64,000 nt of DNA from Roseitalea porphyridii. GTDB lineage: Bacteria; Pseudomonadota; Alphaproteobacteria; Rhizobiales; Rhizobiaceae. Position 1 is the first letter of the stretch. Each line of letters starts with the position of its first letter. This document shows, piece by piece, positions 8,643-13,556 of this stretch. The notes below the pieces were generated by a model. The model was not told the DNA's origin, ran no database searches, and was given only the letters and a program-made list of their open reading frames with translations. The stretch is from NCBI RefSeq assembly GCF_004331955.1, contig NZ_CP036532.1, positions 2,728,001-2,792,000 on the forward strand. The letters are read 5' to 3'. Position numbers and translations under genes: made by a program.

Positions 8643-8873
8643 ATGGAATCAAAGCGCGATATTCTGGAAATTCATCTGACCGAAGTCGCCGGGTTCGATC
8701 TGCCCGACGAAGTCAAGAAGACGCTCAGCGACGACATGCTGCGCGGCAAGGGATTTGAGGCCTGCCACCAGGCCATCCGCGCCCAGACAGGCATCTGGGT
8801 GCCGGAACTGGAGCAGGTCTTCAAGGACCTCGACAGGCTGCTCGGGCTGCCAACTCCGGACATGGTGAAGTAA
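8643..8873 (+). CDS. Small hypothetical protein, 76 aa (possible precursor or partner peptide)
   Basis: Acidic, helix-prone protein beginning MESKRDILEIHLTEVAGFDL, with one Cys and one Trp (ACHQAIRAQTGIWVPELEQV), ending TPDMVK. AAAGGGAG lies upstream at suitable spacing. No known domain is recognised. It lies 62 bases before a gene for a metalloprotease-like protein (positions 8936-9778), and the pair parallels the 61-aa peptide plus HExxH gene set at 11.4-13.6 kb. A precursor or regulatory peptide role is inference from that parallel only. Confidence 0.6.
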   Translation: MESKRDILEIHLTEVAGFDLPDEVKKTLSDDMLRGKGFEACHQAIRAQTGIWVPELEQVFKDLDRLLGLPTPDMVK

Positions 8874-8935: not shown

Positions 8936-9778
8936 GTGTCCCGTGGCAACGCCGTCGCGGATCTTCTCGGCAATGCAGTCGTCCCGGTGGAGTGCGCCGC
9001 GCCTGATGACCCGATCCGCTACTGGGTCGTCGCCGACGGGTCCTTCGGGTCCGTCCCGAATTCTGGCTGGGGCCAGGCGCGTCTCGAGCAGGCCCGGCGG
9101 GCAACCCACCTGATGCGCGCCCGGGCGGAGCGCAACGACGCGATCCGGCTCTGCCTCGAAAACACCCGGTCGGTCATCTTCTTCGAAAGCGACAGCAAGA
9201 ACTCGTTCTATCATCCCGACCTGCGGCGGACCGTGTTCATCAACTGGCGCGCGGAGCAGTCGATCCACCATTTCATCGAGGAGTTCATCCACCAGTCCGT
9301 GCACTCGGTCATCGACGAAATCTCGAAAGATGGCGCGCTGTTCGTGACCAGCGCGACCGGAGAAGGCTTCGATCCCGACCATACGCACATGATCAACGCG
9401 GATTCGGAGACCTTTGTCCGCTTCCATTCGATGGCAACGCTCGCGCTGATCTGCGAAGGCCTGTTCGACCTGCCCGAAGACGCGGACGCAGCCGGGCGCG
9501 CCGTGGTTCTGGGACGCGCATCCTTTGCGTTCCAGAAATTGTCCTACGACCTGCAATACTTCATCGGGAACATGGAAGCGCTCGCGCCATCGGGCGCGGC
9601 GTTCCTGAAAGCGGCGCTGGCGCTCTATCAGCATGGGCTGGCCATCCACCGGGAAGAGTTCCAGCGCCACGACATGACCGGTCAGCCCTACGTGTTCGAC
9701 GAGGCGGCCTTCCTGCTGCGCAATGGTGAGACGCGCCGGTCCGCCGTCGGAGTGCCGGGCGTCGGGCAGCTTTCCTGA
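8936..9778 (+). CDS. HExxH-type peptide-modification protein paralogue with HQSVH motif (possibly inactive)
   Basis: Protein of 280 aa. The stretch INWRAEQSIHHFIEEFIHQS continuing SVHSVIDE (about 102-128) matches in layout the segment ANWPLEKPIRLASLLVHEAM followed by HQALY in the protein at 12711-13556. Later segments also align (FHSMATLALICEGLFDLPED here, HAFWTFSTQLAFLHEFVRAL there). Where the other has the zinc-protease motif HEAMH, this one reads HQSVH (residues 119-123), so the catalytic Glu is Gln. It may be a non-catalytic partner or bind metal only. The GTG start has GGGGGA seven bases upstream; the frame is open further upstream but holds no better start. It converges on dddP with a six-base gap. 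Confidence 0.65.
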   Translation: MSRGNAVADLLGNAVVPVECAAPDDPIRYWVVADGSFGSVPNSGWGQARLEQARRATHLMRARAERNDAIRLCLENTRSVIFFESDSKNSFYHPDLRRTVFINWRAEQSIHHFIEEFIHQSVHSVIDEISKDGALFVTSATGEGFDPDHTHMINADSETFVRFHSMATLALICEGLFDLPEDADAAGRAVVLGRASFAFQKLSYDLQYFIGNMEALAPSGAAFLKAALALYQHGLAIHREEFQRHDMTGQPYVFDEAAFLLRNGETRRSAVGVPGVGQLS

Positions 9779-9784
9779 ACGCCC

Positions 9785-11128
9785 CTAACCCAGCAAACGC
9801 GCGTCGAACGGATAGGACGACAGGTTCTGGTGACCCGTCTCGGTGATCAGCACCTGGTCCTCGAGCTTGACCCCGTCGCGCCCGCCGACCTTGCCGGCAT
9901 AGCATTCCACGCACAGCACCATGCCCGGCTCAAGCGGATAGTCGAACGCGCCCTCGATGAAATCCTCGCGGTAGTAGATCGAGGGGAACTCGTCGCACAG
10001 GCCCACGCCGTGCATGACCACGCCATAGCGCTGGGCGCGATAGGCCTCGGGCAGCGGCTTGGCGAGATGGGACAGTTCGGAAAAGGTCACGCCGGGGCGC
10101 AGCAGCTCCATGTTCGACATGACGTGATCATGGGCGACCGCATAGGCCTCCCGCTGTTCGGCGGTCGGTGTGCCGTCGCCGACGAACCATGTCCGGCTCA
10201 TGTCGCAGCACATGCCGTAGGGTCCGATCAGGTCGGTGTCGAAGGCCAGAAGATCGCCCGTCTGCAGCCGGCGCGGGCCCGCCTCCTGGAACCAGGGATT
10301 GGTACGGGGACCGGAACTGAGGATCCGCGTCTCGATCCATTCGCCGCCGCGCGCGATGTTCTCGGCATGCAGGATCGCCCACAATTCGGTCTCGGCGATG
10401 CCCGGCGCGCAGGCCTTCTCCATGGCCGCCATGGCGATCTCGCAGGTGGCGATGGCGCAGCGCATGGCGGCGATCTCGTCGTCGCCCTTGATCAGCCGCG
10501 CGTGCTCCATCACCTCCTGGCCCGAACCGATCTGAAGCCCGCGCGCGGCCAGCGCGGCCGCTCCGTGCAGTTCCATCTTGTCGACGGCGATGCGCCGGCC
10601 GCCATTGCCGTGCGCGTCCATCAGGTCGGCGACCTGGGCGGCGAAATCGGCGGCCAGATCGTCGGCCCGGTCGCCGGCGACGAAATAGAACAGCCCGGCC
10701 CCCGAGCGGATGTCGCCGATCAGCGGCAGATGCGCCGACAGGTGCTCGCAACGCTTGTAGTCCCACAGCACCATGTGCCCGTCCGCGCCCACGAACACCG
10801 CCCGCGCCGGATTGTGGGCGATCCACACATGCATGTTCGAGGAGTCCGAGGCGTAACGGATGTTGAGCGGATCGAACAGCAGCACGCCGCCATAGCCGCG
10901 CCGGTTGATCTCGGCGACCGTGCGGTCGAGCCGGAAACGCCGCATCCGGTCGAGGTTCGGGATCGCGAGCCCGAGCGCGGCCCATTCGGCGAAGGCCGTA
11001 TCGGTCGGCCCGATCTCGATCCGGTCCGGGTCGACCGGCGATCCGTCCGGCCGGAAAAGGTGCGTCGCCCGCCGGCGCGCCGGATCGATCTTGCGATTGG
11101 AGCTCGAAAGGCCCGGTTCGATGTTCAT
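9785..11128 (-). CDS. dddP: DMSP lyase DddP (M24-fold)
   Basis: Protein of 447 aa with the creatinase/prolidase (M24) fold. It would cleave dimethylsulfoniopropionate to dimethyl sulfide and acrylate. The metal and catalytic residues known for the characterised DddP are all present at a constant +2 offset: Asp297, Asp299 and Asp309 (FDTDLIGPYGMCCDMSR), Tyr368, His373 and Asp379 (VMHGVGLCDEFP), Glu408 (VECYAGK) and Glu423 (GVKLEDQV). The length also matches. Ordinary Xaa-Pro dipeptidases share the fold but not the HGVGLCDE pattern with its catalytic Asp. It stands alone, with no acrylate-handling gene next to it, and diverges from the 61-aa peptide gene. Its place inside the dcw gap suggests acquisition by transfer (inference). 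Confidence 0.88.
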   Translation of the reverse strand: MNIEPGLSSSNRKIDPARRRATHLFRPDGSPVDPDRIEIGPTDTAFAEWAALGLAIPNLDRMRRFRLDRTVAEINRRGYGGVLLFDPLNIRYASDSSNMHVWIAHNPARAVFVGADGHMVLWDYKRCEHLSAHLPLIGDIRSGAGLFYFVAGDRADDLAADFAAQVADLMDAHGNGGRRIAVDKMELHGAAALAARGLQIGSGQEVMEHARLIKGDDEIAAMRCAIATCEIAMAAMEKACAPGIAETELWAILHAENIARGGEWIETRILSSGPRTNPWFQEAGPRRLQTGDLLAFDTDLIGPYGMCCDMSRTWFVGDGTPTAEQREAYAVAHDHVMSNMELLRPGVTFSELSHLAKPLPEAYRAQRYGVVMHGVGLCDEFPSIYYREDFIEGAFDYPLEPGMVLCVECYAGKVGGRDGVKLEDQVLITETGHQNLSSYPFDARLLG

Positions 11129-11387: not shown

Positions 11388-11573
11388 ATGTCCAATGATC
11401 GCAAGTTGCAGATGACCCGGTTTTCCAGGATCAAGGAGATCGTCAAGGAACTCGAGGAGATCGAGGGGGCCGAGAAGGCGCGGATCGAAGAAAATGGCGG
11501 AGAGATCGAGTTGAAGATCAATTCCATCGATCCCGCACTGTGGTACGTCGCCTACAAGACGGCCGCCATGTGA
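11388..11573 (+). CDS. Small peptide, 61 aa; candidate RiPP precursor
   Basis: Protein starting MSNDRKLQMTRFSRIKEIVK, with a highly charged helical middle (ELEEIEGAEKARIEENGGEI) and an uncharged, aromatic-rich end SIDPALWYVAYKTAAM. That layout, charged leader then distinct C-terminus, is what a ribosomally made precursor peptide looks like. AAGGA lies upstream at good spacing. It is the first gene of an apparent three-gene operon with an M29/NicX-like protein and a HExxH protein of the type named as putative peptide-modification enzymes. It has no Cys, so lanthionine or thioether chemistry on this peptide is excluded. The role is inferred, not shown. Confidence 0.6.
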   Translation: MSNDRKLQMTRFSRIKEIVKELEEIEGAEKARIEENGGEIELKINSIDPALWYVAYKTAAM

Positions 11574-11598
11574 TCCTCTGAATCCGGTCAGCGATCCC

Positions 11599-12714
11599 AT
11601 GCTTGATACGCCCGATGAACTCCAGCTGGACGAGGTGGTCTGGCAGGGCCTGCATCGATTCCTCGATACCTATGCGGACCTGAAATCGGACGACCACGTC
11701 GTCATCGCCTATACGCCCGATTCCCGCACCTACGCGGCCTGGGCCGCATTGGCCTGCGAGAGCCGTGGCGTTGAGGCCAGTCTGGTCTTCATGGCGCCAT
11801 TGCGCGATCCCTGGTTCTGCGAACGGCTGGCTCCCCTGATCCCGCCGGAATCCGAGGGGCGCCTTATTCTTCTGACGTTCGAAAAGCACACGATGTCCCA
11901 CAACAAGGTCATCAAGACGCTTGTCGCCGACAGAAGTCCGGAGACCTATCGTGTCGTGCGCACCATCAACGCCAGCCGGGAAGTGTTCACCACCGGCGTG
12001 GAAACCTCCCCGTCCTTGCTGTCTGCTCTCAACACGACGGTCATCGAACGATGCCAGGCGGCACGCCGAGTTCGAATCCGAGCGCCCGGAGGCACCGATC
12101 TGGTCGCGACAATCGACAGCGACAAATATCAGTACAAGAGCAGTCGCGGCGTCCACATTCCGGGCAAGTTCATGGTCGTTCCTCCGGGCGAGGTGGCCAC
12201 ATTCCCTGCAAGCATCAGCGGACGGCTCGTGGCGGATTTCGCGCTGAACGTGAACGTGCTGTTCGAGGGGGATGTCCGTCTCGAGCGCTGCCCGGTCGTC
12301 GTCGATGTCGAGGACGGCGCCATGACGCGCTTCTCCTGTGAGAACGAGGAGATGTCCGCGTTCCTTGAACACAGCTTCTCCAGGCCGAACGCGAAACGGG
12401 TCGGAGAACTGGGGTTCGGCACCAATCCGGCCGTGTCGACGTGTCTGCCGGAGAATTCTCACCTGAACGAACGCGTGCCGGGCATCCATCTCGGCTTTGG
12501 CCAGCACAACCAGACCGACGAGGTCGCGGGCTATGCCTGCGACATCCACATCGACTTGTGCGCCAGGGGAGGCTCGATCTGGTTCGATGACGATGACGAG
12601 CCGCTCGACCTCGAAAACGTGCCTCCCTCGAAGAACACGCATCCGTCGCTGATCAGCGGCGAGGACGTTTTTTCCGATGACGCGGAAGATGACTGTTGCG
12701 GCATGTTGAGGTGA
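11599..12714 (+). CDS. M29 aminopeptidase / 2,5-dihydroxypyridine dioxygenase-like metalloprotein
   Basis: Protein of 371 aa matching the AmpS/AmpT (M29)-NicX fold. Recognisable pieces are APGGTDLVATID (163-173), HIPGKFMVVPPGEVATFP (186-203), VGELGFGTNPAVS (268-280), NERVPGIHLGFG (290-301) and DIHIDL (315-320). Candidate metal ligands are Glu270, Glu291, His297, His317 and Asp319; the last three correspond to the iron triad of NicX, the full set to the M29 site. It could therefore be a peptidase or an iron oxygenase. The C-terminal tail is acidic and ends DDCCGMLR. It follows the peptide gene by 25 bases and overlaps the next gene by four. Confidence 0.7.
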   Translation: MLDTPDELQLDEVVWQGLHRFLDTYADLKSDDHVVIAYTPDSRTYAAWAALACESRGVEASLVFMAPLRDPWFCERLAPLIPPESEGRLILLTFEKHTMSHNKVIKTLVADRSPETYRVVRTINASREVFTTGVETSPSLLSALNTTVIERCQAARRVRIRAPGGTDLVATIDSDKYQYKSSRGVHIPGKFMVVPPGEVATFPASISGRLVADFALNVNVLFEGDVRLERCPVVVDVEDGAMTRFSCENEEMSAFLEHSFSRPNAKRVGELGFGTNPAVSTCLPENSHLNERVPGIHLGFGQHNQTDEVAGYACDIHIDLCARGGSIWFDDDDEPLDLENVPPSKNTHPSLISGEDVFSDDAEDDCCGMLR

Positions 12715-13556
12715 CGGGCGCCGTGCCGGCCTTCGAACCACTCCGTGAGACGGCCGGCTGCGCCCTGCCGGGAATGCTGGTGGATGCTCCGGTCGGCCCG
12801 GTCAGGTCGAACTTCGACGCCAACATTCAGAGCCATTTCCCGTCGACGCTTCCTGTTTCCGAAACCCAACGAGATGCCGTCGGCTCGGAGATCGACGCCG
12901 CCTGCACGCTCTACAAGGGCGCGTTTCCGCTGGCGTTTCTCGATGAGACGGGGCGGGAGCGGCCGTTCATTTCCGAGATCCAGATCGGCCACAGCGTCCG
13001 TGACGACGAGGTCCTGACGGCGTCGTCGGCCGGTGCGCCGGGCGCGGTCATCGTCGTCGCGAACTGGCCGCTCGAAAAGCCGATCCGCCTGGCGTCGCTG
13101 CTCGTCCATGAGGCGATGCACCAGGCACTGTATGTCCGCGAGCGTCTGGCCAATCCGGTCCGACCCGGATCGCTCGGCTATTCGCCCTGGAAGAACACGC
13201 TCCGGCCGGGTCGCATGGTCTGGCATGCGTTCTGGACGTTCTCGACGCAGCTGGCGTTTCTTCACGAATTCGTTCGGGCGCTGCCGGAGAACCGCCGCGT
13301 GGACCCCGGGCTTGCCGAATTCGTGGCCGACATGTGGGCCAGGCTGGAGATTTGCATCGACAGCGTCCGTGGATTCGAACTGGTTGACGACGATGAGGAG
13401 AAGACCATGACGACCGTGTTTCGGGCGTCGGAAGACAGGCTCGCGCAATCGCGTTCGCAAGAGCTCGAAGACGCCATTGCGAAACGGCGAGCCGACGTCG
13501 AGACAGAATTCGCCGCGTGGAGATCATCCATGCTCAGCGAGGCAGGCACCGCGTGA
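12711..13556 (+). CDS. HExxH motif-containing putative peptide-modification protein
   Basis: Protein of 281 aa with a classic zinc-metallopeptidase motif LLVHEAMHQALY (HEAMH at residues 133-137). Downstream comes NTLRPGRMVWHAFWTFSTQL at about 162-181, with a further Glu (HEFVRAL) that could complete the site. The arrangement agrees with the mod_HExxH class, named for association with modified-peptide gene sets. The GTG start at 12711 overlaps the previous stop (GTGA), implying translational coupling; an upstream TTG is less likely. The gene closes the apparent operon peptide-M29/NicX-like-HExxH. Whether it cuts or modifies the peptide is unknown. Confidence 0.7.
   Translation: MTGAVPAFEPLRETAGCALPGMLVDAPVGPVRSNFDANIQSHFPSTLPVSETQRDAVGSEIDAACTLYKGAFPLAFLDETGRERPFISEIQIGHSVRDDEVLTASSAGAPGAVIVVANWPLEKPIRLASLLVHEAMHQALYVRERLANPVRPGSLGYSPWKNTLRPGRMVWHAFWTFSTQLAFLHEFVRALPENRRVDPGLAEFVADMWARLEICIDSVRGFELVDDDEEKTMTTVFRASEDRLAQSRSQELEDAIAKRRADVETEFAAWRSSMLSEAGTA

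Follow-up and report, generated by a model that had tools for sequence, protein, structure and literature searches.

Crocagin biosynthesis is, to our knowledge, the sole peptide natural-product pathway with M29-fold proteins. In the crocagin pathway of Chondromyces crocatus (CgnA, CgnB/CgnE, CgnC, and CgnL), the M29-fold proteins CgnB and CgnE are described as binding both the precursor and the Fe/αKG oxygenase CgnC, and the β-carbons of Tyr and Trp are hydroxylated (PMC10070186). The zinc-holding CgnB, which has no aminopeptidase activity, was proposed, though not proved, to initiate ring closure through an elimination at the hydroxylated Tyr (PMC10070186). The homologues given in that account belong to Actinobacteria, Cyanobacteria, and Beta-, Gamma-, and Deltaproteobacteria (PMC10070186). 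A second described group is the αKG-HExxH proteins, a RiPP-modifying family (PMC12636437), for which radical SAM, MNIO, or MNIO-nitroreductase proteins are the partners reported in two accounts (PMC12636437, PMC13060819). The M29 fold is otherwise represented by the aminopeptidases AmpT, AmpS, and PepS, and by NicX, a 2,5-dihydroxypyridine dioxygenase whose Fe ligands are given as His265, Ser302, His318, and Asp320 (PMC7910607).

The window, the whole 64,000-nucleotide stretch of Roseitalea porphyridii DNA that was analysed, contained a cassette of three ORFs laid out as an earlier note on this DNA had described them (Table 1). The GTG start of the HExxH ORF at 12711 overlapped the preceding TGA of the 371-aa ORF in a GTGA sequence. 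The window cassette itself showed no gene for a transporter, a protease, or a regulator, and it was flanked on the minus strand by dddP upstream and by murB downstream, the latter named from its sequence and its place in the window. Three other genomes of the genus were compared at this position. In G099, dddP and murB lay approximately 0.1 kb apart without the cassette; in G173, other ORFs lay between the two genes; and in G233, no dddP match was found in the 12 kb around murB.

Table 1. Positions in the window of the cassette ORFs and of their main sites.
Feature	Position	Strand	Basis
61-aa precursor-like peptide ORF	11388..11573	+	ORF; coding G+C pattern; short ORF here in 7/7 family loci
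Core motif W52-Y-V-A-Y-K-T58 of the peptide	11541..11561	+	W-x-[VI]-x-Y-x-T in 5/7 loci, TYKT repeats in 2/7
371-aa M29-fold protein, found with the peptide at every family locus	11599..12714	+	46–55% identity to five relatives (alignment of six members); AlphaFold2 model
Presumed dinuclear metal site: E198, E270, E291, H297, H317, D319	12190..12555	+	Invariant in 6/6 aligned members
HExxH ORF, putative αKG-HExxH peptide β-hydroxylase family	12711..13556	+	TIGR04267 51.3 bits, cut-off 40
HEAMH motif of the HExxH protein	13107..13121	+	HEA-H invariant in 3/3 HExxH partners

The upstream neighbour, the DMSP lyase gene dddP (9785–11128, −; NF043017 630 bits, cut-off 600), was located between two peptide-bearing units. 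The second unit, just beyond dddP, was a pair of genes for a 76-aa peptide (8643–8873, +) and a 280-aa protein (8936–9778, +), neither of which matched a Pfam family. In G173 (locus L042), of the same genus, the corresponding products were 89% and 68% identical, with pN 0.06 and pS 0.58 for the peptide and pN 0.19 and pS 0.51 for its partner. No other relative of the pair was detected among 131 family genomes, whose matches did not include G173. The 280-aa protein was considered as a diverged HExxH protein because of an xExxH stretch (EEFIH), and no detectable relation was found. A duplicate C-terminal dddP fragment beside the 280-aa gene in G173 (L042, 6634–6870, −) marked a past rearrangement at this site.

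Relatives of the cassette were sought with the 371-aa protein alone as the query, the peptide being ignored. In the window's taxonomic family, four of 247 genomes gave a match; besides the window itself, these were three weak hits with 29–30% identity over about 130 residues. In the phylum, 11 of 398 genomes matched, namely the window, G977 with 49% identity, and nine with weak hits. In the class, the four matches among 385 genomes were to the window, to G424, and, weakly, to two others. The family of G977 yielded G977 and G1045 from 199 genomes, the relatives of G424 yielded G424 and one weak match from 123, and the relatives of G1045 yielded G1045 alone from 116. No locus came from a first scan of genome contigs, for which the patterns were derived solely from the window protein, and a profile-based scan gave four (L020, L021, L022, and L023); as the latter used just two patterns, members were surely missed. 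L020 was from a Sphingomonas MAG and L022 and L023 were from Rhodospirillaceae MAGs, while L021 was the same contig as L019 (G977, an uncultured Sphingomonadaceae) and was counted once. With L026 (G1045) and L031 (G424), the family was carried by seven genomes in all, the window and six further, and it is alphaproteobacterial, rare, and scattered. Carriage on plasmids or viruses was rejected: tblastn against plasmids gave two weak partial matches for the window protein and none for the L022 protein, and one scan of viral contigs gave no relative. L023 was omitted from all protein alignments for an in-frame stop in the M29-fold frame of that assembly. This TGA was located near codon 14 (about 166–212 of L023), and it represented either a pseudogene or an assembly error.

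At all seven loci, a short ORF was located just upstream of the M29-fold gene, and where the locus was complete (six cases), 3–80 bp separated the two. The window peptide terminated in SIDPALWYVAYKTAAM, and its ORF had G+C contents of 0.48/0.32/0.81 by codon position, which is a coding pattern. Compared with the two tandem peptides of L020 over 58 codons, it gave pS values of 0.61 and 0.67 against pN values of 0.38 and 0.38, and the L020 pair compared with each other gave pS 0.69 and pN 0.36. The excess of pS over pN between the window and L020 peptides indicates that the 61-aa frame is conserved as a protein. The leaders of the window and L020 peptides were alike (F-x-R-[IL]-K-[ED]-[IL]-V-[KR]-E-L-E), and those of the other loci were less so.

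The C-terminal part of the precursors, for which the earlier note had left conserved and hypervariable as alternatives, carried a conserved motif. Y-x-T was present in the upstream peptides of all seven loci, and since these loci had been picked by the M29-fold protein alone, this counts for a RiPP-like cassette. The core was WYVAYKT in the window and in L019, WYVAYKT and WFVAYRT in the two L020 peptides, WSISYST in two copies within one peptide in L026, and WKITYDT at the peptide C-terminus in L031. The L022 peptide carried ten units spaced at a six-residue period, one of them TYAT and the other nine TYKT, and the L023 peptide showed the same C-terminal units up to the contig end; the two shared 39 codons (stop included) with a single, synonymous difference. 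Such multiplication of the core, as tandem peptides, double cores, or ten units, is typical of precursors.

The pattern W.[VI].Y.T had a single match in the window (127,996 six-frame positions), at the core of the 61-aa peptide, and matched six times in five family loci (L019, L020, L022, L026, and L031; 9–18 kb), each time at a peptide core, with no match in a six-frame scan of L022. It was absent from 102,070 six-frame positions of 15 loci of weaker relatives, scanned over about 1.5 kb on each side and less near contig ends, and the 14 of these loci scanned for it also lacked the wider W.[VIL].Y.T. The cassette is real and beyond chance, and the peptide, the M29-fold protein, and usually one more enzyme probably form an undescribed kind of modified-peptide cassette. 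A short precursor gene beside genes of modifying enzymes, kept as a conserved unit, is the general mark of RiPP cassettes, and this arrangement, with a putative precursor and candidate modifying enzymes, was seen at 7/7 loci.

The second enzyme was variable. It was an HExxH protein at three of the seven loci (the window, L019, and L020) and a methyltransferase at two (L026 and L031), and neither was seen at the remaining two (L022 and L023). A constant three-gene system was rejected, since the third gene differs between loci. The window HExxH protein, which scored above the TIGR04267 cut-off and carried the HExxH motif, is a putative member of the Fe(II)/αKG peptide β-hydroxylase family; the L019 partner scored 39.9 and 41.8 bits in two runs, about at the cut-off of 40, and the L020 partner 32.5 and 33.3 bits, below it. 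The window protein also matched ChlH (8s5f) with E 2e-5 alone and 3e-7 as a profile. Its AlphaFold2 model (pLDDT 58.4) was too poor for a fold test, and Foldseek gave no match to this low-confidence model at E 0.001. In the genomes of G977 and L020, the best TIGR04267 match was that of the cassette, with one more each at E about 0.004, whereas L022, L023, G1045, and G424 had no genomic match with an E value of 0.01 or lower. The proteins of L026 and L031 were class I methyltransferases identical in 93 of 250 aligned columns, and their best NCBIfam match, CmoM, was far below its cut-off. Neither enzyme was encoded among ORFs of at least 150 aa on both strands of the 9.3-kb L022 contig, or on the plus strand of the first 3.5 kb of L023.

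The residue following the Trp of the core was Tyr or Phe in all four precursors at HExxH loci and Ser or Lys at the two methyltransferase loci, a correlation drawn from three HExxH loci, which are few, and the tree does not give the number of independent events behind them. In that tree of M29-fold proteins, the window and L020 grouped with 98% support, the two methyltransferase-linked members with 76%, and L022 was placed with 43%; with such weak support, the order of the second-enzyme changes cannot be read from it. A comparable exchange is described for nitrilobacillin-like clusters, where the αKG-HExxH enzyme is replaced by another enzyme and the precursor is changed to match; Pro occurs only where the αKG-HExxH enzyme that hydroxylates it is encoded (PMC13060819). 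The cassette shares with the described αKG-HExxH systems (ChlH, BpmH, PflC/PosC, and PesO; TIGR04267, IPR026337) the family model, the HExxH motif, the ChlH match, and the nearby precursor gene. It differs from them in its M29-fold partner and in the methyltransferase that takes the place of the HExxH protein at two of the seven loci.

The AlphaFold2 model of the 371-aa protein matched NicX, AmpT, PepS, CgnB, and CgnE in fold. NicX was the top Foldseek match (E 1.7e-16), and the fold Z values were 17.8 for NicX, 16.3 for AmpT, and 15.7 for CgnB. A PDB profile search of the family at E up to 10 retrieved no M29, NicX, or CgnB/CgnE sequence and three chance matches (E 0.45–1.4). The M29 model PF02073 matched the L020 member at 28.1 bits (cut-off 27), scored the L031 and L019 members below the cut-off (23.9 and 19.4), and did not match those of the window, L022, and L026; the window member had no Pfam match of any kind. 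The modelled likeness to CgnB and M29 enzymes lies in the fold and in the placing of the ligands, and NicX and AmpT were matched equally well in fold. Near the C-terminus, the family also had an invariant D-C-C-G (D365–G368, 6/6; 12691–12702, +), in a region of very low model confidence.

The six presumed metal positions corresponded to the M29 and CgnB ligand sets as these are described (PMC7023490, PMC10070186). The site read E/E/H/H/D, as in two aligned M29-like proteins (L029 and L030). The ligand comparison with outgroups rests on five of 13 loci, these two and three NicX-like ones (L002, L017, and L032); at the others either no ORF was picked (L010, L012, L015, and L018) or the frame appeared wrong (L003, L004, L011, and L016). 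The proposal that the 371-aa protein is a NicX-type mononuclear iron dioxygenase oxidising the Trp/Tyr tail, through an iron triad of His297, His317, and Asp319, agrees with the rank of NicX as best fold match and with the correspondence of His317 and Asp319 to the HxD pair His318 and Asp320 of NicX. Against it, the column of NicX His265 was Glu270 in 6/6 members, and on this column the protein would lack the NicX Fe ligand set (PMC7910607). His297 was not equivalent to a NicX ligand, and it and E198, both of M29 type, were kept in the family where the three NicX-like proteins have V/L and I/V, respectively. The triad was rejected on this alignment, and a NicX-type activity, which the unrelated gene context does not recall either, is considered highly improbable.

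The M29 catalytic set EEHYHD was kept in its metal ligands, E/E/H/H/D, and the position of the catalytic Tyr (Tyr355 of AmpS) was Asn304 in 6/6 members, as judged by the spacing from His348 to Tyr355 in AmpS and from His297 to Asn304 in the window protein. The earlier suggestion that an M29-type site removes the leader is weakened by this substitution, though still conceivable. More generally, the M29-fold protein may serve solely to cleave the precursor, as a metallopeptidase acting at or close to Tyr-x-Thr and removing the leader or releasing repeated hexapeptides, with the HExxH protein or methyltransferase as the sole modifying enzyme. The full set of M29 metal ligands, the L020 score just above the PF02073 cut-off, the lack of any other protease in the cassette, and the ten equal units of L022, which could be freed by cutting, agree with such a role. 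In addition to the missing Tyr, however, M29 enzymes are aminopeptidases, CgnB with the same ligand set lacks this activity (PMC10070186), and L022 would be left with no modifying enzyme beside the M29-fold protein. The family further differs from M29 aminopeptidases in the Tyr-x-Thr peptide that always adjoins it. A purely peptidase role is regarded as rather unlikely.

The Trp, Val/Ile, Tyr, and Thr of the motif occupy every second residue and may form one face of an extended strand, which could fit into a cleft. This spacing, the conservation of the motif where a hypervariable core might stand, and the lack of export genes in the cassette would agree with a peptide that acts as a small subunit or regulator, its tail docked in the M29-fold protein of a small metabolic enzyme complex with no peptide product. 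The ten repeats of L022, the two cores of L026, the tandem peptides of L020, and the exchange of the HExxH protein for a methyltransferase fit a substrate better, and the subunit role appears quite improbable.

By analogy, the closest logic is that of crocagin biosynthesis, in outline. The earlier note had named no precedent for an M29-type partner; CgnB and CgnE are one (PMC10070186). Both systems have a short precursor whose core contains Trp and Tyr, an M29-fold partner whose six ligand positions for a dinuclear metal site are those of CgnB, and, at some of the present loci, an Fe/αKG-type oxygenase or a methyltransferase (PMC10070186). The crocagin core is a C-terminal Ile-Tyr-Trp, whereas the present precursors carry W-x-[VI]-x-Y-x-T or repeated TYKT units, and Tyr-Trp was found neither at the terminus nor internally in any family precursor. 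As described, crocagin has a pair of M29-fold paralogues, in one of which the metal site is broken. The cassette has one; a single M29-fold match was found in the window genome (E up to 0.001) and one each in G977, G1045, and G424 (E up to 1e-6). Its putative oxygenase is of the HExxH family, no CgnD-like hydrolase, carbamoyltransferase, or glycosyltransferase was seen in the cassette, and the loci are alphaproteobacterial while the homologues in the crocagin account are from other groups (PMC10070186). Lacking the Tyr-Trp core and the paired paralogues, the cassette is not a member of the crocagin pathway. Among the titles retrieved by a literature search of limited scope, none described an M29-fold/HExxH pairing, and the supplementary list in the crocagin paper of precursors beside single CgnB homologues could overlap with the present family.

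The same three kinds of parts as in crocagin lead us to read the M29-fold protein as the precursor-binding, probably catalytic constant part and the HExxH protein as a core hydroxylase. The preferred interpretation, held with moderate confidence, is a RiPP pathway of a new variant, with Tyr-x-Thr cores that are bound or processed by the M29-fold protein and hydroxylated by the HExxH protein. It is drawn from gene order, conservation, motifs, and family matches, from which each activity is deduced. The 61-aa peptide would serve as the precursor, its N-terminal part providing recognition and its short core centring on W-Y-V-A-Y-K-T. This precursor would be bound by the M29-fold protein, which would act on, or hold in place, the Tyr-x-Thr unit, and the HExxH protein would β-hydroxylate one core residue, most plausibly the aromatic residue after the Trp. 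In the window peptide, Tyr53 would then be the predicted site of the HExxH protein, and Tyr56 and Thr58 those of the M29-fold protein. The metal site may then drive elimination or ring closure at the hydroxylated residue, as proposed for CgnB. In relatives, a methyltransferase would replace the oxygenase, or the core would be repeated ten times with no second enzyme seen. The RiPP-like cassette of the earlier note, with a conserved peptide tail and a member of the HExxH peptide-modifying family, is supported in this form: the frame is conserved as a protein, and the M29-fold gene was nowhere found without its adjoining peptide (7/7 loci). Counting against the preferred interpretation are the lack of a transporter or protease gene in the cassette, the absence of the HExxH protein at four of seven loci, the lack of a sequence match to CgnB/CgnE, the small number of HExxH loci behind the Tyr/Phe correlation, and the L020 and L019 scores below and at the cut-off.

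As the HExxH protein is absent from these four loci, its step cannot define the class. A new RiPP class defined by the dinuclear-metal M29-fold protein alone, which would convert Tyr-x-Thr through an elimination, a cyclisation, or a change of the backbone at either the Tyr or the Thr, is possible, although we regard it as doubtful. Its cores would be single, double, or ten-fold, and the oxygenase or methyltransferase would be an interchangeable tailoring step.

What the metal-bearing CgnB does chemically is a proposal and not a proven step in the crocagin account (PMC10070186). With two or three genes, a single M29-fold protein, a clear motif, and one lineage in which no second enzyme was seen, the family would offer a much simpler test system for the action of such a metal site on a peptide. 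The M29-fold protein together with the Tyr-x-Thr motif could also guide genome mining towards clusters in which the customary RiPP markers are missing.
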